DNA from: a virus | Reading direction: 5' to 3' (one strand) | DNA length: 48,408 nt | IMG/VR virus record: IMGVR_UViG_3300018080_000036 | Span: 1-48,408 of that record | Shown here: piece by piece, positions 3,842 to 41,475 of the stretch | Numbering within the stretch: position 1 is the stretch's first letter | Layout: every line of letters begins with the position of its first letter | Notes under the pieces: generated by a model | What the model saw: only the letters and a program-made list of their open reading frames with translations | The model's database searches: none | What the model was told of the DNA's origin: nothing | Position numbers and translations under genes: made by a program

Positions 3842-4040
3842 ATCCTCTACTATACTATTCCATAGGTTGTTGATAATATTGAAAATTTTACTCGCGGAAT
3901 GTGAAAACCTTTGTATCCTAGAGCTCAGCACACAAAATCCCCTATGGGACTCTTTATAGATTTGATGGGATTAGTAAAGTTTTTATTGTAATGGGTTAGT
4001 ATGGAATTGGTTGGTGGATTAGTGTTAGGTTAATAATGAC

Positions 4041-4096
4041 CTGTCGTATTTTGCGATAGTACTGTCGTATTTTGCTTGATGAGTGTAGTATTTTGC
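4041..4096. repeat. Three 14-bp iterons at exact 21-bp spacing
   Basis: CTGTCGTATTTTGC occurs at 4041-4054 and 4062-4075. A third copy with two changes, GTGTAGTATTTTGC, occurs at 4083-4096. The period of 21 bp equals two helical turns, so bound proteins would line up on one face of the helix. A -10-like TATAAG follows at 4110-4115, which places the third repeat over the -35 region of a possible rightward promoter. The array could be an operator for the early promoter or initiator-binding iterons of an origin. Confidence 0.8.
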
Positions 4097-4265
4097 GGCA
4101 GTTTATTAATATAAGCATATAGTTTGGGTTAATGGTAAGATGTTGTTTATTGTCAGGTTGGAGGGTTGGTCGATACTTTGGTATGATTGTTGCCTACTGT
4201 TATGGTGGATTTGGGTAAGTGACCCAATGCTCTTTGATAACTTTTATTAACTAATGGAGGACGTT

Positions 4266-4763
4266 ATGTCTGATGAAAAAACTTTGTCGATGGCTGACTT
4301 AACTATGATGTTTGGAGATGATGTTAAACTGGCTATCACTAGAACTTGTTTTGGGGCTGAGAGACAAGATGGAAAAGTGATTAAAACCATGTCAGAAGTT
4401 GAGAAGGAATGTAAAGCCTTGAAAGATACCAACAAGGCTTTATACCAAGAAGAGATAGCTAAAAGAACAAAGACCTTTAATTTCGATTTCGACGGTGTTA
4501 GTGTTAAAGAACTTCTTGAAAGACACGCCACTAGTACGACAATCTTTAAAAAGTTCTATAATGATAACCTTTTCAATGCTGATGATAATGAAATACTTAA
4601 GTTACCAAAGATGGTTAATGTTAAGGTTAAGGAATTATTGATCAGCCGCGCTGTAACGGCTGATCCAAACAAAGCACGGACAAAGGCTATTCAAGCAAAT
4701 CTGAAAGCTGGATTAACTCCAGAGCAGATTCTTGAGCATTTCAAGAAGGATTTAGGGTTGTAG
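4266..4763 (+). CDS. Unknown 165-aa protein, first rightward gene, monocistronic
   Basis: I do not recognise the family. The protein is mostly helical and mixed in charge. It has MFGDDVKLAI near the N-terminus, FNFDFDGVSVKELL in the middle and a C-terminal helix-rich segment (ANLKAGLTPEQILEHF) that could be an HTH-like or oligomerisation element. GGAGG lies five bases before the ATG at 4266; an in-frame ATG at 4254 overlaps that site and is unlikely. The gene stands alone between the iterons and a strong terminator, and its codons look more mixed than those of its neighbours, which suggests strong early expression. It is a candidate iteron-binding protein, but this is inferred from position only. 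Confidence 0.75.
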   Translation: MSDEKTLSMADLTMMFGDDVKLAITRTCFGAERQDGKVIKTMSEVEKECKALKDTNKALYQEEIAKRTKTFNFDFDGVSVKELLERHATSTTIFKKFYNDNLFNADDNEILKLPKMVNVKVKELLISRAVTADPNKARTKAIQANLKAGLTPEQILEHFKKDLGL

Positions 4764-4782
4764 TTCTATTGGTTGTTAATTG

Positions 4783-4814
4783 AAGCCTGATTATTAATTT
4801 AGTCAGGCTTTTTT
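4783..4814 (+). terminator. Intrinsic terminator after the first rightward gene
   Basis: AAGCCTGA (4783-4790) and TCAGGCTT (4803-4810) form a perfect 8-bp stem with a 12-nt loop, followed by six T. It isolates the 165-aa gene from the downstream operon. Confidence 0.9.
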
Positions 4815-4844
4815 ATTTATTTGTATTGACTTTTTGTACAACAA

Positions 4845-4874
4845 AAATGTATTTGTGGTAACACCCCACCTTTC
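4845..4874 (+). repeat. Inverted repeat, left arm (30 bp)
   Basis: Its reverse complement matches 5108-5137 at 26 of 30 positions, including an uninterrupted 13-base block (CACAAATACATTT) and an 8-base block (TGGGGTGT). The arms point at each other across about 230 bases of A/T sequence. Confidence 0.85.
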
Positions 4875-5107
4875 AAATTTTTCAATGATAAACACCTATA
4901 TAATAGTTAGCCTACTATAGTTATATCGTATAATAAAAAAAATATATATAAATAGAATATATATAATAATATAGGATGATGATAATAATAACCTTTATAA
5001 TATTAATGCCTTTTACATTAATGTCATAGGTTTTTGTGTTACTTTCTATTAAAAAAATATATTACTATAATATATATAATACACTATTGTATTTATGGCG
5101 ATTGGGG

Positions 5108-5137
5108 GGAAGATGGGGTGTGATCACAAATACATTT
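5108..5137 (-). repeat. Inverted repeat, right arm (30 bp)
   Basis: This is the partner of 4845-4874 (26 of 30 identities in inverted orientation). Its centre carries the perfect palindrome TGTGATCACA, whereas the left arm has TGGTAACA at the same place. Two diverged copies of one binding site or the feet of a long stem are both possible. Confidence 0.85.
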
Positions 5138-5169
5138 GATTGATACATTAATTGTATTAACATTGGGTA

Positions 5170-5198
5170 TTGACTTTTTGATATTATATTCATACATT
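5170..5198 (+). promoter_or_regulatory. Candidate rightward early promoter
   Basis: TTGACT (5170-5175), a 17-base spacer and TACATT (5193-5198) match a sigma-70 promoter at five and four positions. The same -10 (TACATT) and spacing recur at 8982-9010. It lies about 90 bases upstream of the gene at 5286, with an inverted repeat in the leader. Confidence 0.5.
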
Positions 5199-5285
5199 TA
5201 TTATCATCATTAATAATCACAATAATAATAATAATGATAATAACCCAGATTTTATTTAACAAGTCAAAAGGAGGTGAAATTAATT

Positions 5286-5510
5286 ATGACTAAGGATTTT
5301 AAGTATTCTAAAAACTTCCCGCTGGAGTGTTTTGAGTGTGGTGGGCCTCTAGTAACGTTTGCAGACCTGAAGGACTGCTGGGAATTGGTAAAGTGTAACC
5401 GCTGTAAAGCTGAGCATGCAGTACAATATAAGGAAAAAGATTTCTGCTATGTCTATTGTAATGGGATGGTAGAGACTTGGAAAGATGGTAAGGAAATAAC
5501 TAATAATTAA
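5286..5510 (+). CDS. Small zinc-ribbon protein
   Basis: The 74-aa protein carries two CxxC pairs (CFEC and CNRC) about 25 residues apart, the layout of a treble-clef or zinc-ribbon knuckle. Its C-terminal half is short and beta-rich. The upstream AAGGAGGTGA is a perfect anti-SD match and fits the ATG at 5286; the in-frame GTG at 5274 lies inside that ribosome site and was rejected. Function is unknown; such proteins in phages often bind nucleic acid or host proteins. It is the first of four small zinc-ribbon proteins in the rightward arm. Confidence 0.75.
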   Translation: MTKDFKYSKNFPLECFECGGPLVTFADLKDCWELVKCNRCKAEHAVQYKEKDFCYVYCNGMVETWKDGKEITNN

Positions 5511-5523
5511 ACTAGAGGTAACT

Positions 5524-6339
5524 ATGACAAAACCAAACGTAGAAAACGCTTATGGGTCAGTTACAGTCTCTGAGAAAATGAAGCTAGACCTTTTAGCTCT
5601 AACAACAGCATCAATCCCACATATTAAAGGTGACAAGAAAACTGGAAGTTTGGCTTTATTAAAGGGTCTATTTCCACAATCTGCTGGAGTTAATATAATA
5701 CTTGAGCCTAAGAGTTTCATTAAACAAACAGAAGATGTTGACAAGATTATAGTTGATCAAAGTAAAGCTAAGGGGTTAGTAGCTAAAAAACTAAAGACTT
5801 CTAATGGGTATATTAAGAAACTAATATCTGGAAAGCTATCAATCAAGTTACATAAGGATATTCTACTTAAGTATAAGTTAGATACTATAATGAGTCTAAA
5901 TACTCTAATATTGCACTTAGAGACAACAGACAAAGTTGAGCTAATTGATTCTTTATTGTTAACTCTCGGAGAGTTAACAAACTGTAAAACCATTGATGAA
6001 CTAGCTTTGAGCTTCACCAAGTTAAAGACTTGGTTTAAAGAAGCTAAAGTACCTATTGAGAAGCCTTTTGATAAGCTAACAACCAACCAAAAGAATACCT
6101 TAACAAACGCTATTGTTTATAGTCTACTCAATGACTCATATAGAGTAAAAAAGAATATAGAGAGCCTGGTGAGGTTATCTAAAGTAGAGGTTTTTGGAGA
6201 ATCAATGACTTATTTTGGAGATCCTAGACAGTTTCTAATTTGCTTGGCTATTTATCTATCTCCCTATATAATGGCTAGGTTACAGGCGACCACTAAAACA
6301 ACCTTTAACAAAGAGGTCAAAGATGACAAAAAAGAATGA
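5524..6339 (+). CDS. Unknown 271-aa protein
   Basis: No family recognised. The protein is Lys/Leu/Thr-rich and predicted mostly helical, with a hydrophobic stretch near the C-terminus (FLICLAIYLSPYIM) and a charged tail. A TAGAGG ribosome site precedes the ATG. It is the second gene of the early operon that starts at 5286, and its end overlaps the next small membrane-protein gene by 17 bases. It has no cysteine cluster and no recognisable nucleotide-binding motif. Confidence 0.75.
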   Translation: MTKPNVENAYGSVTVSEKMKLDLLALTTASIPHIKGDKKTGSLALLKGLFPQSAGVNIILEPKSFIKQTEDVDKIIVDQSKAKGLVAKKLKTSNGYIKKLISGKLSIKLHKDILLKYKLDTIMSLNTLILHLETTDKVELIDSLLLTLGELTNCKTIDELALSFTKLKTWFKEAKVPIEKPFDKLTTNQKNTLTNAIVYSLLNDSYRVKKNIESLVRLSKVEVFGESMTYFGDPRQFLICLAIYLSPYIMARLQATTKTTFNKEVKDDKKE

Positions 6340-6460
6340 AATTAATACTAATCTTAAGTTCTGGTATAGGTTATTTATTATCCTTGAGGTTTTATTAATA
6401 ATCAATATTGGTTTTCTAATATGGTTCCTGGTTATGTTATATAAAGAGGGAGTTATATAA
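6323..6460 (+). CDS. Single-pass membrane microprotein (45 aa)
   Basis: This small frame starts at an ATG inside the end of the 271-aa gene, with AGAGG about seven bases upstream. It encodes a charged N-terminus (MTKKNEINTNLK), a hydrophobic segment of roughly 24 residues (FIILEVLLIINIGFLIWFLV) and a short charged end. The length, overlap and hydrophobic segment make a real membrane protein plausible. A role such as superinfection exclusion or membrane anchoring cannot be decided. A hairpin terminator follows at once. Confidence 0.6.
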   Translation: MTKKNEINTNLKFWYRLFIILEVLLIINIGFLIWFLVMLYKEGVI

Positions 6461-6462
6461 CC

Positions 6463-6501
6463 AAAAAGTGGCTTGTATAAAATATATACAAGTCGCTTTT
6501 T
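6463..6501. terminator. Hairpin terminator built around palindromic element copy 2
   Basis: The conserved element (6472-6492) is extended here on both sides into a 17-pair RNA stem with two G-U pairs (6463-6479 with 6485-6501). It ends in a T-run on the + strand and begins with an A-run, so it could terminate transcription from either side. It closes the operon ending at 6460 and lies 33 bases before the next start (element end to ATG 6526). Confidence 0.75.
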
Positions 6502-6525
6502 TAATAAAAGAAGAGGTGATTAAAT

Positions 6526-7221
6526 ATGATAGACACTAACTTTAATAAGGACTTTCTAAGAGAGTCAAAGCAAACGGCGATAGAAAATGGAGTCTTGGTT
6601 AATCCAACTAAGCTAAGAACAATGCCAATTAATGCTAGGGTAAAGATAGAGGATTTTGCTGTAGTAATATCAGCAATACTTAAATACGATCCTGATACCA
6701 TACCCACCAAGTCATCAGTTGTACATAATGCTTTACACTTCTTGGCTGAATACTTAATTAACAATAGAATAGTTGAACCTTTTCAAGAGGTTGGTAGAGC
6801 TTTGTCTTATCTGGACTCTTTAGGAATTAAGCTAAACCAGCGATCCCTTCCGTCTGGTAATAAAGCTGGGTCTAAGAGTTTATTCAATAGATTAGCTATT
6901 GAAGATAAACAAAAGGAGGCCTTAGTAAATCAGCTAGACCAAGAGGATAAAAAGAATATCTTCGAGTTTATTAGCTATATAGAGAGAATATCTATAGAAG
7001 CATATAATTTACTTAGTAAATTATCAGACAACTCTTTTAATTATCTGCTAGCATCTTGGACAAATAAAGCTAAACTACCAAAAGGAGTAGATAACAAGTG
7101 GTGGTTAAAGCAGATAAAGACTTTCTATGAAATGGAGATTGACAAAACTAGTTTATCTAATCAAGGTAACGCTATAAGAGCTTATGAAGTTTATAAAAAT
7201 AGAAAGGAGTTGGACAAATGA
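6526..7221 (+). CDS. Unknown 231-aa protein
   Basis: No family recognised. The sequence is helical, with a central hydrophobic region (HNALHFLAEYLI) and a Lys/Asn-rich C-terminus containing two adjacent Trp. AGAGGTG lies about eight bases before the ATG. The gene opens a new cistron group just after the hairpin at 6463-6501 and overlaps the next gene by four bases (ATGA), so the two are translationally coupled and may form a complex. Confidence 0.75.
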   Translation: MIDTNFNKDFLRESKQTAIENGVLVNPTKLRTMPINARVKIEDFAVVISAILKYDPDTIPTKSSVVHNALHFLAEYLINNRIVEPFQEVGRALSYLDSLGIKLNQRSLPSGNKAGSKSLFNRLAIEDKQKEALVNQLDQEDKKNIFEFISYIERISIEAYNLLSKLSDNSFNYLLASWTNKAKLPKGVDNKWWLKQIKTFYEMEIDKTSLSNQGNAIRAYEVYKNRKELDK

Positions 7222-7862
7222 AAACTATGATGGACATTTATAAGCTAACTCAGGATGAATTCTTAGATTGTTTATTAGATTGCTCATTAAATGGTAAAGG
7301 TCTCGTAGACTTTTATCTATGCTCATTCATAGAAGCAGCTAGCTTATATAGAAAATCAGACCAAGAATTACCTACAGCTATTACATTAACAGATAGTATT
7401 AAGTTTATAGTCCTCAAAGAGTTATTGTCTGATACTAATAGCCAGCGTTTTCATTTAAAAGATACTATGGAAAATAACCTCATCAAACAAGCCTTAAATT
7501 CTCATAACTTGCTCAACTTTATACAGCCCATAGCTAAGAGCGTCGTGGAAGCTAAGACAAAACCATTTAAGTCCTTAATATCTAAACTTACTAAGAATAC
7601 TTGGCTAGGTATGAACTTTCTAAAGTTAGATGTTGCTAGACTATTGTCTGAGGATAGTTCAGGTCTTCGTGAACGTTTCGAGTATCTAATGGATACTAGA
7701 CTAAGTACAGATCTAACCTATGATGATGTAGTTTTGCCTATAGAAACAGCATCCGACTTTGGTAAGGCGGTTTGTGTAACCTCGCCATATTTATTAGACC
7801 ACTCTGCTTTATCAATTTACCTAGAACAGCAAATAACAACCAACCTGGAGGTTAATAAATGA
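7218..7862 (+). CDS. Unknown 214-aa protein coupled to the gene at 6526
   Basis: No family recognised. It is a mostly helical protein, Leu/Ser/Asp-rich, starting at an ATG that overlaps the previous stop (ATGA) with AAAGGAG upstream. It has no obvious catalytic motif or membrane segment. Its position between another unknown and the methyltransferase suggests an early host-takeover gene. Confidence 0.72.
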   Translation: MKTMMDIYKLTQDEFLDCLLDCSLNGKGLVDFYLCSFIEAASLYRKSDQELPTAITLTDSIKFIVLKELLSDTNSQRFHLKDTMENNLIKQALNSHNLLNFIQPIAKSVVEAKTKPFKSLISKLTKNTWLGMNFLKLDVARLLSEDSSGLRERFEYLMDTRLSTDLTYDDVVLPIETASDFGKAVCVTSPYLLDHSALSIYLEQQITTNLEVNK

Positions 7863-8032
7863 AAGTAATTTACAAAGATAATAAAGGCTGGGATAAAGAA
7901 GTCCCAGAAGTTCAAGACACCTATGAATATCAAATCATGGAGGAAAGATGTTTATTAGTAGAAAATCCTATAAACCAAAGACAAAACACCTCAAACAGGA
8001 GGTTGTTAGTGACCTGTGGCATACTGGTCTAG
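7859..8032 (+). CDS. Possible 57-aa protein overlapping the methyltransferase start
   Basis: An ATG overlapping the previous stop, with a GGAGG site seven bases upstream, opens a frame encoding MKVIYKDNKGWDKEVPEVQ and onward to TAG at 8030-8032. Its last 85 bases overlap the methyltransferase gene in another frame. The good ribosome site and absence of another gene in 7863-7947 support it; the long overlap and unremarkable C-terminus argue for caution. Confidence 0.45.
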   Translation: MKVIYKDNKGWDKEVPEVQDTYEYQIMEERCLLVENPINQRQNTSNRRLLVTCGILV

Positions 8033-8592
8033 CTAACTTTAACCATAATAACTATGTCACTGGCTTAGGAAAGTCATTATATTTGCTTAAATTGATCTCA
8101 GGTCATATTGAGACCAACTCCATTATCTTAGAACTAGGCTGTAGTGTTGGTAGAAACTTGAACATCTTAAGAGCCTACGGTTATAGACCCTTTGGAGTTG
8201 AGTATTCAAGAAAGGCTATTACTAAGAAAACTACCACCTGCCCAATTAACGTATGTTCTATTGAGAACTACTATGAGAACTATCACAAAGCTGGTATTAT
8301 GGAGATTCTAGGTAATAAAATCGATCTAACCTTCTCAATGATAAGTCTTGGTTTTCTAATGCCAGAATCAGAATGGGTATTTAAGGAAATGGTTGAGACT
8401 AGTAGATATATAGCTACCATAGAGAATGAGGTTGATGGTGAACCTGAGTATGTAGCTAGAGACTATAGAGAGATTTTTACTAACTTAGGCTGTAAGCAGG
8501 TAAAACATCTAGGAACCAACTTCAATCCATTCTTTGATGGTTTTTGGGAAAAACCTGGCAGAGTTCATGGAAGATTGTTTAAGGTTAAATAG
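7948..8592 (+). CDS. Class I SAM-dependent methyltransferase
   Basis: The 214-aa protein contains the glycine-rich SAM-binding motif ILELGCSVGRN (residues 60-70), then GYRPFGVEYS, where an acidic residue should hold the SAM ribose. The middle segment (DLTFSMISLGFLM) corresponds to motif IV. This matches small Methyltransf_11/23-type enzymes rather than DNA base methylases: no DPPY or NPPY motif is present. The substrate is unknown. GGAGGAAAG precedes the ATG. The gene ends just before palindromic copy 3. Confidence 0.75.
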   Translation: MFISRKSYKPKTKHLKQEVVSDLWHTGLANFNHNNYVTGLGKSLYLLKLISGHIETNSIILELGCSVGRNLNILRAYGYRPFGVEYSRKAITKKTTTCPINVCSIENYYENYHKAGIMEILGNKIDLTFSMISLGFLMPESEWVFKEMVETSRYIATIENEVDGEPEYVARDYREIFTNLGCKQVKHLGTNFNPFFDGFWEKPGRVHGRLFKVK

Positions 8593-8621
8593 CATCTTGT
8601 ATAAAATATATACAAGATGCT
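8591..8621. repeat. Palindromic element copy 3 with extended 13-bp arms
   Basis: The conserved element (8596-8616) is extended to a perfect inverted repeat with 13-bp arms (AGCATCTTGTATA and its complement) around AAATA. It begins two bases before the methyltransferase stop codon is completed at 8592 and lies 31 bases before the next ATG (8648). A 26-bp block from 8598 is identical to copy 6 at 32328. No T-run follows, so it is not a standard terminator. Confidence 0.9.
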
Positions 8622-8647
8622 GGTTAAATTGATAGAAAGGAAGTCTA

Positions 8648-8974
8648 ATGCTATCAGCTAAAAGACTAATAAAACAAGGTCTATCTAAATGGATAGAGGA
8701 TAATAAAAGCATAATTCCTGAAGATAGGATAAAGATGATTTTAGCTCAGGAAGATGTTATCGTAAAAGACCCAAAGAAATTTAACAGTGATGTAACCTAT
8801 GAAGGCTATTTAGTATTCCAGGTCGATTTGGTAAATAAAAGAATAATCCAATTAACGACCTTTATGTCCTATGATAATCAGGTTAGCCTAGAAAGTCCGT
8901 ATGATCTAATAGCTCCAGAAGATATTAATTGGGAGAAGGTTGTACCATTGGATAAACTATTCAATCTTGATTAA
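8648..8974 (+). CDS. Unknown 108-aa protein
   Basis: No family recognised. It starts with a basic helix (MLSAKRLIKQGLSKWIED), followed by a beta-rich acidic half. GAAAGGAAG lies before the ATG. It sits alone between palindromic copy 3 and a candidate promoter at 8982, so it may be a separately regulated early gene. Confidence 0.7.
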   Translation: MLSAKRLIKQGLSKWIEDNKSIIPEDRIKMILAQEDVIVKDPKKFNSDVTYEGYLVFQVDLVNKRIIQLTTFMSYDNQVSLESPYDLIAPEDINWEKVVPLDKLFNLD

Positions 8975-8981
8975 AAAACAC

Positions 8982-9010
8982 TTGCATATAATGGTTGGTT
9001 TTTGTACATT
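8982..9010 (+). promoter_or_regulatory. Candidate rightward promoter with operator-like inverted repeat
   Basis: TTGCAT (8982-8987), 17 bases and TACATT (9005-9010) resemble a sigma-70 promoter and repeat the -10 and spacing seen at 5170-5198. An inverted repeat AATGGTTGGTT/AACCGACCATT (8990-9000 and 9015-9025) brackets the -10, as expected of an operator or a hairpin at the transcript 5' end. Confidence 0.5.
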
Positions 9011-9078
9011 ATATAACCGACCATTACATTATTATTACATTATTAAACGTTATTAAATTAGACTATTAGGAGATTATA

Positions 9079-9372
9079 ATGCAAAAGAGATATGTTGTCT
9101 TTAGAAAATCTATCAAGGGTAAAACTCACTATACTACCAAACGCTGGTCTGATACAACTCAATTTGAAGAGCTAAAAATAGAAAAGGGGAAAGATTATGA
9201 TGTTCTATATGGAACATCCGCTGATGATGTTAAAAGAAAAGCTAGATATATGGATGTGCTTTTGTTTATTTTAGAGACTCTACCAGAGCTATCTAATAAT
9301 AATGAATTAACTACTAAACAAAAAGAGGCTTTAGTGGTTAAATTCTTAGAAAACCATAAAGAATTATTATAA
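9079..9372 (+). CDS. Unknown 97-aa protein
   Basis: No family recognised. It is a basic, Lys-rich N-terminal half (RYVVFRKSIKGKTHY) followed by helical segments. TAGGAG about eight bases upstream supports the ATG. It is the first gene after the candidate promoter at 8982 and probably heads the small operon that includes the next genes. Confidence 0.7.
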   Translation: MQKRYVVFRKSIKGKTHYTTKRWSDTTQFEELKIEKGKDYDVLYGTSADDVKRKARYMDVLLFILETLPELSNNNELTTKQKEALVVKFLENHKELL

Positions 9373-9391
9373 AGCAAAAGAAGATTAGACT

Positions 9392-9991
9392 ATGACTACA
9401 ACAGAAGACATTTACACAAAGTATGATAAGCCAAGAAAGCTTATTACGTTTAGGGGAACGAGGCAATATCCAGAGAAAGTGTTATTTTCCTTAGAAAAAA
9501 CTATTGAAGCCTACGAGCGACTTATAATTATCCTTAGTTTTGAAGAGTCTATGCAAGTTAAACTAAATATGGTTTACGCTTGGAGCGAGTATGGGAACTT
9601 TGACTCCTGTAGATTGTGTAGAACTGTCCTTGGGTCAGATGATCGCGGGTTCTTATACTCTAACAGGGCTTTATATAAGAACTGTCCATTGACTTTACCC
9701 TACCTCCTATCTTCTAAATTCCCTTACACTAAAGCCTTCTGTATGGTAAATGACAGAAGAACTGGTCTAAGTTTATATGAGGCAATAAATGAGACTATTT
9801 CAACAACTAAAAACATTCCTCCGATTTTTACAGATAGTTATCTAAAAGACCTACGAAAAGCTCTAATCAAAAGACTAAAGTTTATAATAGGTAGAGCCAA
9901 AAGAAATAGAGCAACTTTTATATATCCAACCCTATCCTGTGTTTTCGCATCTAATGCTAGAGAACTCAGAGGTATTAAATTTCCTAGTTAA
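9392..9991 (+). CDS. Unknown 199-aa protein with a Cys pair
   Basis: No family recognised. The central segment has CRLCRTVLGS followed some 25 residues later by CPLTLPY. This could bind a metal, but only one full CxxC is present. The C-terminal third is rich in Arg/Lys (LRKALIKRLKFIIGRAKRNR) and could bind nucleic acid. It follows the 97-aa gene by 19 bases, with only a weak ribosome site. Confidence 0.68.
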   Translation: MTTTEDIYTKYDKPRKLITFRGTRQYPEKVLFSLEKTIEAYERLIIILSFEESMQVKLNMVYAWSEYGNFDSCRLCRTVLGSDDRGFLYSNRALYKNCPLTLPYLLSSKFPYTKAFCMVNDRRTGLSLYEAINETISTTKNIPPIFTDSYLKDLRKALIKRLKFIIGRAKRNRATFIYPTLSCVFASNARELRGIKFPS

Positions 9992-10018
9992 TAATTAACA
10001 AAAGGACTAGTCAACTAA

Positions 10019-10213
10019 ATGGATTCATTTAACATAACTAACAAAAAGCAATTAGCACAGACTAAGTTCTGTACTAATATAGGACAGCCTAAGTTTGTAT
10101 TAACTAGATGTCCTAGTTGTAATGGAGATCCATTAGAAAGATATAGCATAGAACAATGTACTAAACAATTAATAACCAGTTGTTCAATGTGCAATCACTC
10201 ATTTGTTAGCTGA
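10019..10213 (+). CDS. Small zinc-ribbon protein (64 aa)
   Basis: It has two CxxC knuckles, CPSC and CSMC, about 24 residues apart, with short beta segments between them: a minimal zinc ribbon. The N-terminal 25 residues are polar. The best ribosome site (AAAGGAC) lies rather far (about 12 bases) from the ATG, so expression may be weak. It probably binds nucleic acid or a protein partner. Confidence 0.65.
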   Translation: MDSFNITNKKQLAQTKFCTNIGQPKFVLTRCPSCNGDPLERYSIEQCTKQLITSCSMCNHSFVS

Positions 10214-10290
10214 TTTAAAGAAAGGAGGATTTTTAATTAAAAAAACCTATAAATAATAAAAAACTAATAATCAATAAGGAGAAACAAAAA

Positions 10291-10788
10291 ATGGTAAAAG
10301 TAGAATATTCCTTAACTCCCTCTAGAATAAACAATATCTTAGAAGGGGTTGCTAAATCCGGCGATCAAGATAAGATTGAAGCAGTAGAATGGCTAGAGCC
10401 TTATAGAGAAACCGGTATCCCATTTAGTGGTGAATACGACTTTGGTGAAACAGCAGACCTTGACGGACTCAGAGCCAGGTTTGGAGACGAGTTAGTCTAC
10501 AGTTATGGTAAGCAGTCCATTGGTCTTTGGCTAGGTACTAGAGTAAGAAACATGCTCGAAGCTGGACTATCTACAGAAGACATCCAAGCAAAACTGTTGG
10601 ATCCTGAGTTTAAGCCGTCATTAGGTGGTTTTCGCAAACCTAGAAAGGATGTAAGAGATCAGTATCTTGACTCTATGGCAGACAAATCTCTCGAAGATAA
10701 ACTGGCTGAAATAGAGAAGATGAAAGAAGCTTTATTAGCTATGTCCGAAGAGTCTAACGACTCCTTGACTGAATCAGCTAGTCTATAG
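10291..10788 (+). CDS. Unknown 165-aa acidic protein, probably abundant
   Basis: No family recognised. It has a compact N-terminal region (residues 1-70) containing EWLEPYRETGIPF and RFGDELVYSYGKQS, a helix LEAGLSTEDIQAKL, and an acidic coiled-coil tail (EDKLAEIEKMKEALLAM). It carries a clear AAGGAG site, is framed by a gene-free leader and a strong long-loop terminator, and has the same length as the gene at 4266. Both share an FGD[DE] motif and an AGL[ST]xExI helix. They may be distant paralogues, though this is weak by eye. Confidence 0.75.
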   Translation: MVKVEYSLTPSRINNILEGVAKSGDQDKIEAVEWLEPYRETGIPFSGEYDFGETADLDGLRARFGDELVYSYGKQSIGLWLGTRVRNMLEAGLSTEDIQAKLLDPEFKPSLGGFRKPRKDVRDQYLDSMADKSLEDKLAEIEKMKEALLAMSEESNDSLTESASL

Positions 10789-10808
10789 TTAGTCATTTCA
10801 CAATAACA

Positions 10809-10879
10809 CTCCCTCTTCTAATTCCATAAGGCATGTCGCTTTCACGTCTGAGGAAAGAAGTAAGAAGAGGGAGCTTTTT
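10809..10879 (+). terminator. Long-loop hairpin terminator
   Basis: CTCCCTCTTCT (10809-10819) and AGAAGAGGGAG (10863-10873) form a perfect 11-bp stem followed by C and five T. The 43-nt loop is unusually long for an intrinsic terminator and contains further pairing possibilities (CATGTCG/ACG and GGAAAGAAG). A small RNA processed from the 3' end of the upstream mRNA, or an attenuator, is possible. Confidence 0.75.
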
Positions 10880-10900
10880 AATAACTAACCTGGAGGTTGT

Positions 10901-11248
10901 ATGAAACCAGAAAGAAAGAAAAAAGTATTTATAATAAATAAATCAGGGCACAACTATCAACCGGCTGAAGAATTTGGGGAGCTTATCTATCTCTCAGAGG
11001 GCAACATTAACCCTTTTAGAATATCTAGAATAGCTGAAGAGTTTAAGGGAATATTATCAACACAAGCCCAAGATGGAGATTATATAGTACCAACATCAGT
11101 TGGAGCCTTTAATGCCTTAGCTGGTTGGATAATGGGACAGTTAAATCTAAGCCTTAACCTTTTGTTATTTGATAGAAAAGGCTTCTATGTACCTAGAAAT
11201 ATAGTATGGACTATAACATCACCTATAACATCAAGGGGGGATACATGA
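10901..11248 (+). CDS. Unknown 115-aa protein upstream of the nuclease
   Basis: No family named. It begins basic (MKPERKKKVFII). Its centre, DYIVPTSVGAFNALAGWIMGQ, has the small-residue pattern of a Rossmann-like beta-alpha unit, followed by LLLFDRKGFYVPR. TGGAGG lies before the ATG. The stop overlaps the nuclease start (ATGA), so it is translationally coupled to it and may be a partner or regulator of the nuclease. Confidence 0.72.
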   Translation: MKPERKKKVFIINKSGHNYQPAEEFGELIYLSEGNINPFRISRIAEEFKGILSTQAQDGDYIVPTSVGAFNALAGWIMGQLNLSLNLLLFDRKGFYVPRNIVWTITSPITSRGDT

Positions 11249-12360
11249 TTGTATTAAAGGAAGCTACAAACACTAGAAAAAGGTTTATTTGGAAGCCTGA
11301 TCAAGACGCAAGTGGGACTAGTAGAAAGATTATAGAATCCCCTGAAATAGTATCTACTACAAAAGTCTTTCCTATTAAAGAAAAAGAAACCTGGTTTGTA
11401 ATGGATTCTACTAAGATGAATTGCTATATGACTTGTCCTAGATTATTATTCTTCGAGCATATATTAGGACTTCGTCTTGAAGGAAATAATATAAACCTAA
11501 TATTTGGCTCAGCCTGGCATATAGCAAGGGAGATTATGTTATTAGGAGGCTATAACCAAGAAACAATAGAAAAGGCTAAACAAGCCTTAGCTGATTACTA
11601 TAGCAACTATTATCCAGAACTTATGTGGCTCGACAATAGTCCAAAGGATCCTAAGACAGCTAATAAGGCAATTGATCTATACGTAGATATGTACAGTAAA
11701 GTTGATACTTTTAAGTGTCTATACACAGAGATATTAGTACCAATACCTATTAGTGATACTAGAATTCTTTATACTAAAATGGATAGCATTAATATAAACT
11801 CAAGGAGCCAGTACTTTTCCCTAGAGCACAAAACTACAAAGCAAGAATCGTCTTATCTTCACGATCAATGGTTGCAGGCTTTTCAAATTGATGCTTATTA
11901 TCATACATTAGTAATGCAATACGGCTTTGAGAATGTTTATGGTATAGTGGTAGAGAATTCAATATTTAGAAAAGGTAGCAAGGGTATAGCACATATTAGA
12001 ACAGTTATACAAAAAGATAAACTACAATTACAGGATTGGTTAATAAGAGCCAACCAATATATGGACGAGTTTGAAAAAGACATGAGGGAGTTTAGAGAAA
12101 CCACCATAGATGATCCAATAATGACTTGCTTTAGAAAAAAGACTACTTCATGTATAAGGTATAATAAAATCTGTCCTATGTTTCATATATGTAATGCCTA
12201 TCCTAATCCAATACAGCTCGCTGGAAATATTCCAGTTAATTACATAGAAGAATTCTGGGATCCTAGAACAGCTGACGAACAGGGTAATAAGTTTACGAAT
12301 TTCTTAGACTTTTATAACAAGGCAGTAATAGTACGGGAGACTAACAATGAAAAAGGATAG
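11245..12360 (+). CDS. PD-(D/E)XK exonuclease with Cas4/AddB-type Fe-S cysteines
   Basis: The 371-aa protein has CYMTCPRLLFF (C60, C64), GSAWH (88-92), D180, E194-H-K196 and QAFQIDAYYH (211-220). These are the H, D, ExK and Q-rich helix motifs of RecB-family nucleases. Cysteines 295, 303, 310 and 316, together with an N-terminal one, form the iron-sulfur signature of Cas4 and AddB nucleases. Such enzymes resect DNA ends and in phages pair with annealing recombinases, here the Sak4-like gene at 13643. The start at 11245 follows AAGGGGGG and overlaps the previous stop; an in-frame ATG at 11206 has no ribosome site. Confidence 0.85.
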   Translation: MIVLKEATNTRKRFIWKPDQDASGTSRKIIESPEIVSTTKVFPIKEKETWFVMDSTKMNCYMTCPRLLFFEHILGLRLEGNNINLIFGSAWHIAREIMLLGGYNQETIEKAKQALADYYSNYYPELMWLDNSPKDPKTANKAIDLYVDMYSKVDTFKCLYTEILVPIPISDTRILYTKMDSININSRSQYFSLEHKTTKQESSYLHDQWLQAFQIDAYYHTLVMQYGFENVYGIVVENSIFRKGSKGIAHIRTVIQKDKLQLQDWLIRANQYMDEFEKDMREFRETTIDDPIMTCFRKKTTSCIRYNKICPMFHICNAYPNPIQLAGNIPVNYIEEFWDPRTADEQGNKFTNFLDFYNKAVIVRETNNEKG

Positions 12361-12393
12361 TAATCAAAAATAAATACAAAAGGAGATTAGCTA

Positions 12394-13605
12394 ATGTCTA
12401 ACAAAATAATTCTATCAGAGGATCAAGAAATTGTAGTGAGTAAAGTACTCGATTGGTATAATAATATATCAGAGTCAGATAACGTGGAAAAAGCCTATAT
12501 TACTTTAGGTGGTTATGCTGGCACAGGTAAAAGTACCATACAGAGGTTTATAAGAGACAGGCTTGGAGACGAAACTGTAGTAGGCTTTGTCTCATTAACT
12601 GGCAAAGCTGTAAATGTAATGGATAAAAAACTGAGAGGCTGTCTTAGACAAAAGGATTCACTGTCAACCTTACATAGTTTTATGTACCATCCTATTATAG
12701 ACGACTATGATAATGTTACAGGTTGGGAGCTTAAACTAATGGCGAAGGACTTTGATAATACCAATCCCGATCTCGCTCCTTATGTAGATGTCTTTATAAA
12801 CGATGAGGCTAGTATGACTGGTAGGGATCTATTTAAAGACCTATCCTCATATAATAAGCCAATGATTTTCATCGGAGATCATGCACAGCTGCCTCCAATT
12901 TCAGGGGAGTTAAATCTAATGGAAAATCCTGAGTTGAGGTTAGAGAAAGTTCATAGACACTCAGAGGAAAATCCAATACTCTATCTAGCTACTAAGGCTA
13001 GAGCTGGAAAGCTCATACCATTTGAGTCTTTTAGCTCAAAAGTAAAAAAACTCACCAGAGTAGAGGCTCAAAAGGATGATAGAATCAATGAGCTTCTAGA
13101 GGATAGGACTAATAACACCTGCGTACTTACGCCATACAATAATACTAGAGTCAATATAAATAGATTAGTCAGAAAAAGATATGACTTAAATAGAGACTCC
13201 CCAGCTGTTGGTGATAAAATAATCTGTCTACGAAATGATAGACGAAGTGGTATCTATAATGGTATGATTGGAGTTATCTTAGAGTTAAAGCCTTCAAAAA
13301 TGGCTCCAGATTTAAACTATACAATGAAGATAAAAGCTGATGATAGACTATATAATAATTTAGAGGTAGCTAAGTATCACTTCAACTTTAATCCAAAAAC
13401 AGACCCTAAACCAGCTTTTACTAACCTTGACTATAGAGACTTAGGTACTTTATGGGACTATGGTTATGCCATGACAACTCATAAGGCTCAAGGTAGCCAG
13501 TTTAAATCAGTTATAATATGGGGGGAGGCTTGGCCAGCAATTCGTAACCGCTGGTTATATACTGCTATAACTAGGGCACAAGAGGAGCTTTATATAATTA
13601 ATTAA
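12394..13605 (+). CDS. SF1 DNA helicase, RecD/Dda-like
   Basis: The 403-aa protein has a complete set of SF1B helicase motifs. These are Walker A GGYAGTGKST (39-48), Walker B INDEAS (135-140), motif III FIGDHAQLPPI (159-169), motif IV around EKVHRH (184-189), motif V MTTHKAQGSQF and motif VI WLYTAITRAQEEL near the C-terminus. It is close in size and layout to T4 Dda, a 5'-3' helicase for replication start and recombination. A good AAGGAGATTAG site precedes the ATG. Palindromic copy 4 starts five bases after its stop. Confidence 0.92.
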   Translation: MSNKIILSEDQEIVVSKVLDWYNNISESDNVEKAYITLGGYAGTGKSTIQRFIRDRLGDETVVGFVSLTGKAVNVMDKKLRGCLRQKDSLSTLHSFMYHPIIDDYDNVTGWELKLMAKDFDNTNPDLAPYVDVFINDEASMTGRDLFKDLSSYNKPMIFIGDHAQLPPISGELNLMENPELRLEKVHRHSEENPILYLATKARAGKLIPFESFSSKVKKLTRVEAQKDDRINELLEDRTNNTCVLTPYNNTRVNINRLVRKRYDLNRDSPAVGDKIICLRNDRRSGIYNGMIGVILELKPSKMAPDLNYTMKIKADDRLYNNLEVAKYHFNFNPKTDPKPAFTNLDYRDLGTLWDYGYAMTTHKAQGSQFKSVIIWGEAWPAIRNRWLYTAITRAQEELYIIN

Positions 13606-13609
13606 GGAA

Positions 13610-13630
13610 CTTGTATATATTTTATACATG
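13610..13630. repeat. Palindromic element copy 4, inverted, next to the recombinase start
   Basis: The element reads TTGTATATATTTTATACAT on the + strand, the reverse orientation of copies 1-3. It ends 12 bases before the ATG at 13643, directly against the AGAGGAG ribosome site. Copies 6 and 7 have the same orientation relative to their gene and nearly the same gap. Confidence 0.9.
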
Positions 13631-13642
13631 AGAGGAGCAATA

Positions 13643-14539
13643 ATGACAATACCTAATGGTTACTCTATACCTAATCCAACACAAGTACCAGTATCAAATC
13701 AATCTATAAAACCAATAGAAGCAATGGATTTAAAAACAGTTTATACACCAGAGTCTATAAACTCAACTCAGACTATATTGTTAATGGGTGAGCCTGGATA
13801 TGGTAAGACATCACTTATTGCTTCCGGACCTAAACCTATATTAAACTATTCCTTTGATCCTAAGGGTACAGCGGTGATTATGAATAAGTATCCTGAGCTA
13901 ATAAGCTCAAAGAAATATCAATTTATTCCATTCTGGAATGAGAGAGCAGATAATCCAACTGAATATAACAGATGGGAATCCATTTGGAAAGCTCATATAG
14001 CATCTGGTTATCTAGATCAATTTGCCATAGTAACTATTGATAGTTTAACTACTTGGCTAGAGGCGGCAGTTAATGAATGGATAAAGCAGAAAAATATACA
14101 AAGAAAAGGTAAGATATTAGATAACCTAGCACAGGGGGATTATCCAGGTTTATACAACTTAGTTAGAAGTATGATCAAACAAACTGCCGCCTGTGATTGT
14201 CACTTTGCCCTAACAGCTCACCTAGAGCCAGAACAAGATGAGCTGTTAGGTACAATTCGCTATGTATTGTCAACATACAAAAAGTTAAAAGTAATAATTC
14301 CAGCTCTATTTACGGAAAAGTGGGTTATAACAAAACAGCCAGGCTCTAATGGTATAACCTATTCTATATTAACAAATAACGAGGGGTTATATTCAGCATC
14401 TACTCAACTAAAACTACCAGCTAAACTACCTTTAGCAAATACTGATAGATTACCTGAAGGTACTACCCCAGAAAATCTAAGGGATATATTGAAAAAGGCT
14501 GGTGTACATTACGAAGATAAGCCCAACTTTTGGGAATAA
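13643..14539 (+). CDS. Sak4-like RecA-family ATPase (single-strand annealing recombinase)
   Basis: The 298-aa protein carries Walker A GEPGYGKTS (49-57) and a hydrophobic Walker B strand FAIVTIDSLTT (127-137), followed by a RecA-core-like segment. It belongs to the AAA_24/Sak4 group of short phage recombinases, which lack the N- and C-terminal domains of RecA and work with an ssDNA-binding protein. AGAGGAG five bases upstream fixes the ATG at 13643; the in-frame ATG at 13628 lies inside the palindromic element and ahead of that site. Its neighbours, an Fe-S nuclease, a helicase and an SSB-like gene, fit a recombination cassette. Confidence 0.85.
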   Translation: MTIPNGYSIPNPTQVPVSNQSIKPIEAMDLKTVYTPESINSTQTILLMGEPGYGKTSLIASGPKPILNYSFDPKGTAVIMNKYPELISSKKYQFIPFWNERADNPTEYNRWESIWKAHIASGYLDQFAIVTIDSLTTWLEAAVNEWIKQKNIQRKGKILDNLAQGDYPGLYNLVRSMIKQTAACDCHFALTAHLEPEQDELLGTIRYVLSTYKKLKVIIPALFTEKWVITKQPGSNGITYSILTNNEGLYSASTQLKLPAKLPLANTDRLPEGTTPENLRDILKKAGVHYEDKPNFWE

Positions 14540-14566
14540 TTAATAACTAATTTAAGGAGAACAAAA

Positions 14567-15046
14567 ATGTTTAAATTCAGTAGTACTTCAAATGATCAGA
14601 ACAAGGATGCAGTAGTAAGTCCACACACAGCTATGGAAGCTAATACTAATGCTGATCCTAATCCTAATGAAAAAGACGCTAAAACGGACAGCCCTCTGAC
14701 TGCTGATGATGAGAGTGTTAAAGCTTATATAGCTCAGTTTGAGGACAGAGCCGATGTAATAAAATCTGAACACAGTGGTAGTTTATACTTTCTACTTGAG
14801 CGCCTATGTAACAGAGCTTATTCATTGCTTGATGCTGTTGAGGCTATGTCTGATGATCTATCGCCAATACTTACAGATCTTACCGAAGATAACCTAAATG
14901 AGTTAGACTTACGTATCTATTCAACTAAGCTTAAGTCAAGGATACTGGATAATGTATCTGCTACAGCCACAATAATCTTTTTAGAAGATATGCTAATAAA
15001 ATTAAATAGGGCTTTAACCTTAATAACATCAGGAACTAAACTTTAA
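14567..15046 (+). CDS. Unknown 159-aa protein in the recombination cassette
   Basis: No family recognised. The first 50 residues are polar and Asn/Asp/Thr-rich and probably disordered. The rest is helical with heptad-like Leu/Ile spacing (YFLLERLCNRAYSLLDAVEAM; NELDLRIYSTKLKSRIL). AAGGAG before the ATG is clear. Its place between the Sak4-like and SSB-like genes suggests an accessory or regulatory subunit. Confidence 0.72.
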   Translation: MFKFSSTSNDQNKDAVVSPHTAMEANTNADPNPNEKDAKTDSPLTADDESVKAYIAQFEDRADVIKSEHSGSLYFLLERLCNRAYSLLDAVEAMSDDLSPILTDLTEDNLNELDLRIYSTKLKSRILDNVSATATIIFLEDMLIKLNRALTLITSGTKL

Positions 15047-15070
15047 TATTTAACAAGAGAAAGGAGAATC

Positions 15071-15277
15071 ATGTTAGAAGTAAGACCTAGAGTATATCGG
15101 GCTACTAACGAAGAAATTCAAGCTGGGTTACACTTAGTGTGTCCTGCCTGTAATGGGGGTATTACATTAGTAGGCCCAGCTGGTAGACAGGAAGCATACT
15201 GTCCAAGATGTCATATCAGTGTAGCCTTATTCGAGGTAGGTCAGACTCCAGTTAATCCAGTAGCACAGTTTCAATAA
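15071..15277 (+). CDS. Small zinc-ribbon protein (68 aa)
   Basis: Two CxxC knuckles (CPAC and CPRC, 18 residues apart) with Gly/Pro turns form a minimal zinc ribbon. The N-terminal 20 residues are charged. AAGGAG is well placed before the ATG. It lies between the 159-aa gene and the SSB-like gene, and may be a DNA-binding accessory of the recombination complex. Confidence 0.72.
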   Translation: MLEVRPRVYRATNEEIQAGLHLVCPACNGGITLVGPAGRQEAYCPRCHISVALFEVGQTPVNPVAQFQ

Positions 15278-15314
15278 ATAATAACCTATTAACATTTCAA
15301 AAAGGAGTAATATC

Positions 15315-15788
15315 ATGTCATTAATATCTTCGATCATTCAAAACACTCCAGACCCAGTTGTCTTACCAGCTGGAACGAGAGTAAGATTAATCTTACAAAA
15401 GGCTACATTTGGAGCTACAAAAGGAGGTACCAGAGAAGATGGTACGGATAAACCTATCAGGCCAATAATAAAGCTTTATTGTAAGGTAGAAGGTCAGCCA
15501 TTAGTAGGATTAATCTCTGACAATCTATGGTTTCCATTAGATTCTGATGCTGAAGACGTCCAGGTAAATCAGAATCAGAAGATAAAGGGTGTAATGGCGG
15601 CCTTGAAGATTAATCCAAAGGTTGATGGAGACATAGACCCTAATAGCTATAAACCAGACATGGAACCAGTGGTGTTAGCCAATTGGGTAGGTAAAACTGG
15701 TGAGGCTACCTTAGGGCAGGATGAAGACGCTCAAGGTCTTCCAAGAAATTTCATTACTAACTGGTTAAAACCACCAAAAGCAATGTAG
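15315..15788 (+). CDS. Probable ssDNA-binding protein (DUF669-like)
   Basis: The 157-aa protein is beta-rich in its first 110 residues (GTRVRLILQKATFG, PIIKLYCKVEGQPLVGLISDNLWFP). A Lys-containing segment (KIKGVMAALKINPK) and a short C-terminal part (NFITNWLKPP) follow. This resembles DUF669-type phage proteins that act as SSBs beside Sak-type recombinases. The assignment rests on that resemblance and on position three genes after the Sak4-like gene. There is no acidic SSB-type tail. AAAGGAG precedes the ATG and a strong terminator follows. Confidence 0.6.
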   Translation: MSLISSIIQNTPDPVVLPAGTRVRLILQKATFGATKGGTREDGTDKPIRPIIKLYCKVEGQPLVGLISDNLWFPLDSDAEDVQVNQNQKIKGVMAALKINPKVDGDIDPNSYKPDMEPVVLANWVGKTGEATLGQDEDAQGLPRNFITNWLKPPKAM

Positions 15789-15802
15789 TATAATCATTCT
15801 AT

Positions 15803-15832
15803 AAAGCAGGGCCTAAAAACCCCTGCTTTTTT
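15803..15832 (+). terminator. Intrinsic terminator after the SSB-like gene
   Basis: AAAGCAGGG (15803-15811) and CCCTGCTTT (15821-15829) form a perfect 9-bp stem with a 9-nt loop, ending in six T. It closes the recombination cassette. Confidence 0.92.
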
Positions 15833-15847
15833 AATTAGAGGTATGAT

Positions 15848-16120
15848 ATGAAATTAGAGAATTTAAATAAATCAATAACTCAACTAACTACTGAAGAACA
15901 ACTACAATTAGTACAAAAGATTAGGGAATCTAGACTTAGAGTAAAGGCAGTATATAAGGCTTCTAACAAGAAGAAGACTAAAAAGATAATCAAACCTAAG
16001 ACTACCACAAAGAGAAAACAAAAAAAAGTAAAAAGTAAAGAGGACTTAATGTATCTAATATCCAAGATGGAGGAAATGGTAAATGAGCAAAGAACAAATC
16101 AACCATCAGGCAGTAACTGA
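15848..16120 (+). CDS. Small highly basic protein (90 aa)
   Basis: The middle third is a Lys/Arg/Thr-rich tract (SNKKKTKKIIKPKTTTKRK) between two helical ends with Leu/Ile spacing. It probably binds nucleic acid electrostatically or is a linker-type accessory. It starts shortly after the terminator with AGAGGT before the ATG, and its end overlaps the ParB-methyltransferase gene by 38 bases, so the two are co-expressed. Confidence 0.68.
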   Translation: MKLENLNKSITQLTTEEQLQLVQKIRESRLRVKAVYKASNKKKTKKIIKPKTTTKRKQKKVKSKEDLMYLISKMEEMVNEQRTNQPSGSN

Positions 16121-17540
16121 GGTACCAGAATTTAATAAGATAGCAGTTCCTAGTAAGTTGGCTAGAATAGCTATAAAGGACATCAACCCTGGTAGACGTG
16201 TTAGAGGCTCTTACGCAGGTACTAAAAAGGACTGGGATGATTTTAAGCAATCTCTAAAGGAAGAGGGTCAGATACAACCAATAACTGTTATGGAATATGA
16301 TACTCCGTTTGAGGATTTTAGATATTTTTTACTATGTGGGGGTCGTAGGATTAAGGCTCTTAAAGAACTAGAGGAAACTCAAGTAGATGCAAAGATATAT
16401 CCTCATGGACTTAACGCCTATGAGCTTAAAGCTATTGAATTATCAGAGAACCTTCATCGTAAAGATCTTACAGTAGACGAGAAAGCAGAAGCCCATAAAG
16501 ATATGTATGATTATTACATTAGTCTATATGGTAAAAAGGAGAGTACCTCTCCAAACGCCCCAGGATTATCCATCAGAGATGTAGCAAAGAAGATGAAGCT
16601 GGATAAGATGACCTTAATAAACAGTTTGAAAATAGCTAAAATATTTGAGGATGTTCCTGAGGCTAAGGGAAAGATTAAAACAGATGCGGAAGCTTTATCT
16701 TTGCTCAAAAGGGCAGAGAAAACAGTAAGAATAGAAAAAGAATCAAAAGAAGCTCGTGAGAAGTTAACTAATTCTACTGAGGATAGAGCTAAAGAAACCA
16801 TTATGGGAAGTTATATAGTAAACGAAGGTGGGTTTTTAGCTTACGCTAAATCTCTAAAGGATGAGTCCTTTGACCTTTGTAACTTTGATCCAGATTACCC
16901 TAATGCTTCAAAAGACTTCGGTGGACAGCACACCTCCTCAGTTACCTCAATTACCTTAGGTCATTATAGCACTATAAATCCAGAGAACTTCGAGGGATTT
17001 TTTAAATCCTGTCTTAAGGAAATCTATAGAATACTAAGACCAAATTCCTGGTTAATAGTATGGTTTGGCTATGAATACTTTCAGAGAATCTTAGACTGGG
17101 CTAAAGAGACCAAGTTTGAGGTGCACTATAATCACGGTAAGTGGCTGAAGATTAGTAAAGCGGAGTTTGTTGTAAGTCATACTAGAAACCCACATAGATT
17201 TCTGGGACACTCCATAGAACCTTTCTTCTACTTTAAAAAAGGTTCTGCCACTATCCAGAAACCTCACCACGATACCTATATGCACCTACCAGATCCTCCA
17301 AATAAAAGGATAAACCAATACCAAAAGCCTATCCAACTCATGCAGGAAATATATGACACCTTCTTATTACCAGCACAGAGGATTATATCTCCATGCACTG
17401 GTAGTGGATGTGATATATTAGCTGCTATTAACACTGGTAGATTCGCTGTTGGATGTGATACATCTAAAACTCAAAAAGAAGCCTTCAAGCATAGAGTATT
17501 AACTCAACCGATAGCTCAGTATAAATCTTGGGAGCAATAA
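16083..17540 (+). CDS. ParB-like domain fused to a DNA methyltransferase
   Basis: The 485-aa protein has an N-terminal ParB/Srx module: CGGRRIKALKEL (85-96), ENLHRKDLT (122-130) and an HTH (162-183, SIRDVAKKMKLDKMTLINSL). Residues 240-470 are a DNA amino-methyltransferase with motif IV DPDY (269-272, a variant of DPPY), HSIEPFFYFKK (376-386), KPIQLM (415-420) and motif I SPCTGSG (436-442). The motif order IV to I is that of beta-class enzymes. The ParB part could bring the methylase to DNA sites; protection against host restriction is the likely role. Activity of the variant motifs is uncertain. TGGAGG is nine bases before the ATG. ParB-MTase fusions occur in other phages and plasmids. Confidence 0.85.
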   Translation: MSKEQINHQAVTEVPEFNKIAVPSKLARIAIKDINPGRRVRGSYAGTKKDWDDFKQSLKEEGQIQPITVMEYDTPFEDFRYFLLCGGRRIKALKELEETQVDAKIYPHGLNAYELKAIELSENLHRKDLTVDEKAEAHKDMYDYYISLYGKKESTSPNAPGLSIRDVAKKMKLDKMTLINSLKIAKIFEDVPEAKGKIKTDAEALSLLKRAEKTVRIEKESKEAREKLTNSTEDRAKETIMGSYIVNEGGFLAYAKSLKDESFDLCNFDPDYPNASKDFGGQHTSSVTSITLGHYSTINPENFEGFFKSCLKEIYRILRPNSWLIVWFGYEYFQRILDWAKETKFEVHYNHGKWLKISKAEFVVSHTRNPHRFLGHSIEPFFYFKKGSATIQKPHHDTYMHLPDPPNKRINQYQKPIQLMQEIYDTFLLPAQRIISPCTGSGCDILAAINTGRFAVGCDTSKTQKEAFKHRVLTQPIAQYKSWEQ

Positions 17541-17541
17541 T

Positions 17542-20025: not shown

Positions 20026-20034
20026 AAGGTAACT

Positions 20035-21240: not shown

Positions 21241-21244
21241 CATT

Positions 21245-21439
21245 ATGTCAATCATAGGAAAATGTATTGGATTTACTGGTTCATTAACTATTATCTCCAT
21301 AGTATTAAAATTAACTCACATAATTAATTGGAGTTGGTGGTGGGTATTAGCTCCATTGTGGACACCTACTATTATATCTATAATAATCCTTATAGGTCTT
21401 TTAACCCTAATCCACTTCTTATATAAAGATAATCATTAA
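21245..21439 (+). CDS. Small two-pass membrane protein
   Basis: The 64-aa protein has two hydrophobic segments (about residues 8-24 and 31-60) joined by INWSWWWVLAPLW. This short pattern (LKLTxxIxWSWWWVLAPxW) is seen in many phage proteins annotated as transmembrane fragile-X-F-like. Their function is unknown. AAAGGAG precedes the ATG four bases after the upstream stop. Confidence 0.75.
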   Translation: MSIIGKCIGFTGSLTIISIVLKLTHIINWSWWWVLAPLWTPTIISIIILIGLLTLIHFLYKDNH

Positions 21440-21459
21440 TATAATAAAAGGAGGCTATA

Positions 21460-21867
21460 ATGCTAGGCTATCAACCGACAATACAGGATCTACTAAAAAC
21501 ACGTTATGAAAGAGAAAAGGTACTCAACAAAAAGCGAAGCCATAAAATATGCTTCCAGTGTGGAAGGCACGTGTTCACCTTCGCCAAAAGATGTAGCTCT
21601 TGTGGTAGTGCCTTTGTACCAGATGAAAAGTTAAATAAAGAAAAAAGACGAAAGATTAGAGCAACATCTAATTTTACTCCGGAGGATATAATAGCTTATA
21701 TTCAAGATATTGTAGATGTAATAAAAGAGCAAAGAATAACTCTTAGTAATTTTGAATTAGAGTTCTTGGGCAGTCTTTTAGATAGAGACTCTAGATATAT
21801 CTCAAGAGCTACTGAGGAAAAGCTAGTTGAGATTCATGAGAAGTATATAACTACTAAAAGAATTTAG
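21460..21867 (+). CDS. Zinc-ribbon protein (135 aa)
   Basis: Residues 26-47 hold CFQC and CSSC, 17 residues apart, a zinc-ribbon pair. A basic patch (KEKRRKIRATS) and a helical C-terminal half follow. It starts after AAGGAGG. It is the last gene of the continuous replication operon before the structured region at 21937-22038. The function is unknown; a nucleic-acid-binding role is likely. Confidence 0.72.
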   Translation: MLGYQPTIQDLLKTRYEREKVLNKKRSHKICFQCGRHVFTFAKRCSSCGSAFVPDEKLNKEKRRKIRATSNFTPEDIIAYIQDIVDVIKEQRITLSNFELEFLGSLLDRDSRYISRATEEKLVEIHEKYITTKRI

Positions 21868-21876
21868 GAGAATAAA

Positions 21877-40489: not shown

Positions 40490-40492
40490 AGC

Positions 40493-41436: not shown

Positions 41437-41449
41437 AACAATCTCCTAT

Positions 41450-41470: not shown

Positions 41471-41475
41471 ACCCT

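Follow-up and report, generated by a model that had tools for sequence, protein, structure and literature searches.

Between positions 4845 and 5137 of a 48,408-base virus record (the window, by which the whole stretch analysed is meant), an inverted repeat encloses an AT-rich segment, and the question raised by this locus is what such an element does for the phage that carries it. The original prediction placed three answers side by side: an origin that includes an unwinding region, a site of recombination, or an RNA structure of large size. The origin is favoured by a layout and a place that are kept among relatives. The recombination site finds no support, with one copy of the element in the genome, and the large RNA is the less likely alternative.

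The element and its setting in the window

The two ends of the record share an exact 123-nt direct repeat (1-123 is identical to 48286-48408), so the record represents a complete circular map, although it is classed as linear in the collection. The phage is tailed and its genome has a GC content of 36.4%. The late genes lie on the minus strand, and the plus strand from 4254 to 22419 carries the early and replication genes. These include a fusion of a ParB-N domain to a DNA methyltransferase (16083-17540, plus strand), which is found in 54/61 genomes of the group described below, a protein that joins a uracil-DNA glycosylase domain to a family A DNA polymerase (17542-20025, plus strand), and a DUF3987 protein that matches a primase family (20035-21240, plus strand), along with an exonuclease, a Dda-like helicase and a Sak4-like ATPase. 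A helicase function has been predicted for DUF3987 domains (PMC5862659). The likely gene for the terminase small subunit is located 1.2 kb from the element. Elsewhere in the window, 166-2631 encodes a right-handed beta-helix protein, likely the tail spike, and 23108-26806 encodes a 1232-aa late protein that weakly matches a family of virion RNA polymerases (E=5e-6, about 110 residues). Where late and early genes diverge, at about 4040-4100, GTATTTTGC occurs three times, two of the copies inside TGTCGTATTTTGC. A tRNA scan of the window is empty.

The inverted repeat is real: the left arm (4845-4874, plus strand) is complementary to the right arm (5108-5137, minus strand) at 26/30 positions, and the ungapped arms, 4845-4872 and 5110-5137, match at 89% over 28 nt. 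This is the sole pair in the window with at least 23/28 matches at a spacer of at most 400 nt, the runner-up reaching 22. The inner part of the left arm (4862-4874) is a C/pyrimidine tract, and the inner side of the right arm is purine-rich, with a G6 run at its inner edge (5104-5109) and GGGG at 5115-5118. Between the ungapped arms, the spacer (4873-5109) is 237 nt long, has a GC content of 19.8%, and contains nested complementary segments. The surrounding stretch, 4764-5285, has 22.6% GC and holds no ORF of at least 90 aa; a minus-strand ORF of 65 aa touches the right arm. The palindrome TGTGATCACA reported for the right arm is present at 5119-5128 and looks incidental, because its counterpart in the left arm matches at only 8/10 positions and the arm sequences of relatives are unrelated.

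Pairing is predicted for the element as a whole and is not limited to the arms. As RNA, the plus strand from 4838 to 5145 is predicted to fold into a single long imperfect hairpin of 308 nt (-77.5 kcal/mol, z -6.2), and the minus strand folds nearly as well (z -5.5). An A8 run on the plus strand (4935-4942), which ties with another A8 at 16020-16027 as the longest A/T run of the genome, sits off-centre and away from the hairpin apex, facing an A7 run (5051-5057, plus strand) in the predicted fold. Outside the arms, a 14-nt exact direct repeat on the plus strand (4823-4836 and 5167-5180) includes a -35-like hexamer in both copies. Upstream of the element, a hairpin resembling an intrinsic terminator (4782-4811, plus strand) closes ORF 4254-4763. 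To the right, a candidate sigma70-like early promoter (5178-5207, plus strand; TTGATA-18-TATCAT, 10/12) is directed away from the element, and the first ORF past it (5286-5510, plus strand, 74 aa) is preceded by an RBS-like stretch at about 5269-5276 and has no family match. Apart from its match to itself, no further copy of the element is found in the genome.

A kept place and a kept layout with unrelated letters

No close relative of the window is found by DNA search, by single queries with ORF 4254-4763 or the small or large terminase subunit, or by a search with the arm pattern. Bacterial genomes scanned with a terminase alignment contain 23 loci whose terminases are remote (23-36% identity), and no host emerges. 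When the polymerases of the window and of Desulfofustis phage LS06-2018-MD01 are aligned as a pair and used as the query, 516 distant relatives are confirmed, of which 80 were kept, the best with 42% identity. The polymerase-defined group surveyed here comprises 61 genomes: a first set of 27 (the window, LS06-2018-MD01 and 25 contigs), five named phages, and 29 unseen genomes used from 32 named (without G053, G056 and G062), with the near-duplicates G049 and G050 counted separately. All inverted repeats with spacers of 15 to about 530 nt were scored, with a threshold score of 17; the window repeat scores 19.1.

In the first set, 19/27 genomes pass the threshold, all 19 with the repeat 10-16.2 kb upstream of the polymerase start, and eight have none. 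For the unseen genomes the rule was fixed in advance: the best repeat, with a score of at least 17, lies 9-17 kb upstream. Here 24/29 genomes have such a repeat and five have none; 22 of the 24 repeats fall inside the interval, the exceptions being G058 at 8.2 kb and G029 at 17.4 kb. The binomial probability for 22/24 is 6e-15 with kinship between the genomes ignored and, like all probabilities given here, is inflated by their relatedness. The repeat is in place in two of the five named phages, Microcystis phage Mel-JY34 (element at 44129-44291) and MW202489; in Caulobacter phage Kuura the best repeat is elsewhere, and 119X (Fredfastierviridae) and Tiera have none above threshold. Over all 61 genomes, 46 have a repeat above threshold, of which 43 are in place (9-17 kb upstream of the polymerase gene) and three elsewhere, leaving 15 with none. 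Among Markov-shuffled genomes, one shuffle per genome, 0/61 reach the threshold (highest score 16.6), and neither do any of five unrelated control phages (T7, LUZ24, T1, phiKMV and P22).

Between distant relatives the arm sequences differ and the inverted repeat is kept. The early leader region of G022 (original coordinates 40281-42998) and that of G031 hold two or more strong inverted repeats. In the genomes below threshold, inverted short repeats flank the longest runs of G002 and Kuura (A23 and T12, respectively), and shorter inverted repeats surround the longest run in G048 and G055; the group plan around the longest run is absent from G017 and G038. The Pseudomonas phages 119X and PaP2 of the Fredfastierviridae have homologues of the primase-like protein and the large terminase of the window's phage, at about 22-27% identity; unlike the window, 119X and Tiera, which groups with 119X on the polymerase tree, are without a repeat above threshold. 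This tree was built without six genomes that have short polymerase frames.

The anatomy of the element was compared in a set of 46, consisting of the top-scoring repeat of each genome except in G036 (rank 3) and G015 (rank 2), where it was picked by eye. The set includes G050 and G061, which score below 17, and G029 and G058, which lie outside the interval; G025 is excluded, since its sister G026 shows by comparison that the element lies at the end of the G025 contig. The shared plan consists of short direct repeats on the outside, a C or pyrimidine tract, an AT-rich spacer with the longest A/T run of the genome, and the mirrored arm, joined in half of the elements by a sigma70-like promoter directed outwards. 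Arm length ranges from 19 to 104 nt. The arms of different genomes are unrelated, with a median local score of 6, against a median complementarity of 25 within genomes. Arms and flanks hold 526 repeated 7-mers where 91.7 are expected, and this excess of short repeats is significant (p<=0.05) in 28/46 genomes. A motif common to all arms is found only in part, TTTGTA occurring in 8/20 and TGTAGG in 6/20 left arms (1.3 and 0.75 expected). When the longest runs of C and of G in the left half are compared, C is the longer in 27 elements and G in 14, with a tie in five.

Spacer GC is below genome GC in 44/46 elements, and 34/46 are without an ORF of at least 100 aa. The unique longest A/T run of the genome (7-30 nt) lies inside the element in 37/46 (35/44 without the two elements picked by eye), and 33 of these 37 runs sit at 0.39-0.58 of the element length. 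Among the 41 elements with a run of at least 7 nt, 24, the window's not among them, have the run in the terminal hairpin loop of the DNA fold. Among tree genomes with such a run, the window's clade has A on the early strand in 24/25 cases and T in the remaining one; in the Mel-JY34 clade, the early strand has T 15 times and A twice. Seven of these strand labels were assigned by hand. The window itself is a weak example of this plan: its A-runs lie away from the centre, and the number of its short repeats does not significantly exceed expectation (three against two expected, p=0.35).

As the original prediction stated, the element is not explained by anything in the gene content, in that no protein family is conserved beside it across the group; conservation among the early genes is limited to those for replication, recombination and methyltransferases.

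Strand bias, promoters and contig ends

A rightward promoter-like site leaving the element is present in 24/46 genomes, against 2.75 expected. The other three promoter placements are near expectation, sites that read into the element numbering 2/46 against 1.7 expected (sigma70-type only). These counts bear on the possibility that transcription of the early strand passes through the element and that the long hairpin acts as RNA, which we regard as improbable. The stability of the window fold speaks for such an RNA, and so does a bias among the arm mismatches of the 46 elements, in which wobble pairs number 130 for the early strand and 76 for the late strand (p=2e-4 per mismatch). By genome, 24 favour the early strand and 11 the late. 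The bias is seen in both clades and is not explained by GC skew, and base composition alone predicts an early-to-late ratio of about 1.13 to 1. The G-U counts of the first 18 elements alone favour neither strand, with 30 against 27 for the arms and 41 against 46 for the interior; they are not taken as evidence for DNA, the 46-element set being biased to the early strand.

The wobble excess points to the early strand as the folding one, be it in the form of RNA or of single-stranded DNA, and a DNA hairpin of the early strand is expected to produce it equally. The promoter evidence counts against RNA: sites reading in are not in excess, and the leaving site begins beyond the right arm, within 10 nt in several genomes, which leaves no room for a terminator. 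In the window, moreover, the terminator-like hairpin lies directly upstream of the element, and an Rfam scan gives 0 matches at gathering thresholds. An RNA is thus the less likely form of the folded strand.

The same promoter-like site, directly to the right of the element in those 24/46 genomes, is accounted for equally well by a regulatory loop. A phage regulator would bind the inverted short repeats on both sides, bend or loop the AT-rich spacer and switch the abutting early promoter, for example to choose between lytic growth and an episomal carrier state such as a relative is reported to have. This control of the early promoter by looping is the main rival of the origin, and we consider it unlikely on balance. 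The short repeats carried by the arms agree with it, as does the episomal persistence of Shea (Fredfastierviridae) reported in PMC13348215, an episome that would also need an origin active without the lytic cycle. However, the complementarity, which continues unbroken along arms as long as 104 nt and along C/G tracts, exceeds what a pair of operators needs, the central place of the longest A/T run is left unexplained, and 119X, of the same family as Shea, is without a clear element.

Contig ends bring in another alternative, a packaging, genome-end or partition site, to which we assign a low probability. Five of 35 linear contigs end in or at the element, and two further contigs, G010 and G016, terminate at its place in an A26 run; the terminase small subunit gene is close by in the window, and the conserved ParB-N/methyltransferase fusion would fit partition. 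Against packaging, circular assemblies span the element, including the window, whose 123-nt end overlap lies elsewhere, and assemblies break at hairpins and homopolymers regardless. To our knowledge, none of the known pac and cos sites is a long hairpin, which also counts against packaging. Relatives with contigs that end in or at the element are G010, G016, G005, G011, G014, G061, G063 and G025, the last by way of G026.

The frequent contig breaks might equally be taken as a sign of an assembly artefact, and an AT-rich core bounded by terminal inverted repeats recalls a MITE-like mobile element; together these readings are highly improbable. A transposable element is rejected on the single genome copy and on the arms, where no target-site duplication is seen, and unrelated arm sequences at the same place in deeply diverged phages argue further against mobility. 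A plain artefact is rejected since the element occurs in dozens of independent contigs and in named complete records. A protelomerase telomere, for which an almost perfect palindrome lacking a long spacer is expected, is likewise rejected, given the 237-nt spacer and no protelomerase among the window proteins scanned.

A candidate origin and its known counterparts

The element is probably a cis-acting DNA site, and its most likely role, with a probability of about 0.5 as judged from comparison of the genomes, is that of a replication origin of this phage group. An origin is the best reading because the place, at the start of the early genes, and the complementarity are kept, the centre is AT-rich, short repeats are present in many members, about half of the elements have a promoter-like site leaving them, and those early genes that are conserved serve replication, recombination and methylation. 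In the proposed sequence of events, an initiator would bind the repeats located in both arms, and transcription leaving from the right-hand promoter would underwind the element, a principle of transcription-driven underwinding described in PMC5043065. The underwound element would then melt or extrude, with a hairpin formed by the early strand. The exposed A/T region may serve as the loading place of a helicase, perhaps the DUF3987 protein, or of a primer. The DUF3987, Sak4-like and ParB-N/methyltransferase proteins are the foremost candidates for the initiator, and a Dda-like protein is encoded as well; in the family comparison of the 61 genomes, no initiator gene conserved beside the element is found. 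Early-strand ORFs have the same GC skew on either side of the element (38 genomes, p=0.57), so this test is negative as evidence for an origin.

The lambda origin combines inverted iterons with an adjoining A+T-rich region, and transcription assists it (PMC5043065). Many elements of the group resemble it in having repeated and inverted short sites next to an A+T-rich region, where transcription nearby would likewise assist. In the group element, by contrast, whole flanks of 19-104 nt are complementary and enclose the AT-rich part with its homopolymer, the location is mostly intergenic, and an O-like initiator is not found.

At the mitochondrial OriL, the polymerase starts a primer at a T-stretch in the loop of a single-stranded hairpin (PMC4256270). 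The phage elements recall OriL in so far as their A/T run falls in a terminal loop of the predicted hairpin, as in the 24/41 folds given above. By this analogy, a hairpin of several hundred bases with the longest A/T tract of the genome at its tip could be a new kind of phage origin, with the folded single strand as the start of priming; we offer this as a tentative and rather doubtful extension of the origin reading. On the early strand, genomes of the window's clade carry the run as A, those of the Mel-JY34 clade mostly as T, so the T-loop mechanism of OriL would not be common to both clades without a change of direction. OriL is also far smaller than the phage element. If the extension holds, an OriL-like origin would be kept across the group by complementarity and layout alone, while its letters turn over completely.

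Other origins resemble the element in layout. The oriV of RSF1010 combines iterons with inverted copies of single-strand initiation sites; the likeness is without a sequence link, and RSF1010 is a plasmid with a dedicated primase and known sites. In herpesvirus oriL and oriS, inverted initiator boxes surround an AT-rich centre, and here too the resemblance is one of layout only, to a eukaryotic virus with unrelated proteins. A literature search, with most subscription papers outside its coverage, returns no description of the element or of an origin for the group.

In conclusion, the element would make it possible to locate the likely origin independently of sequence in podovirus-like phages of a large group that is almost uncultured, and it may explain why assemblies of these genomes break recurrently at one place. 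It would also allow a direct test of whether shape, and not sequence, can define an origin.
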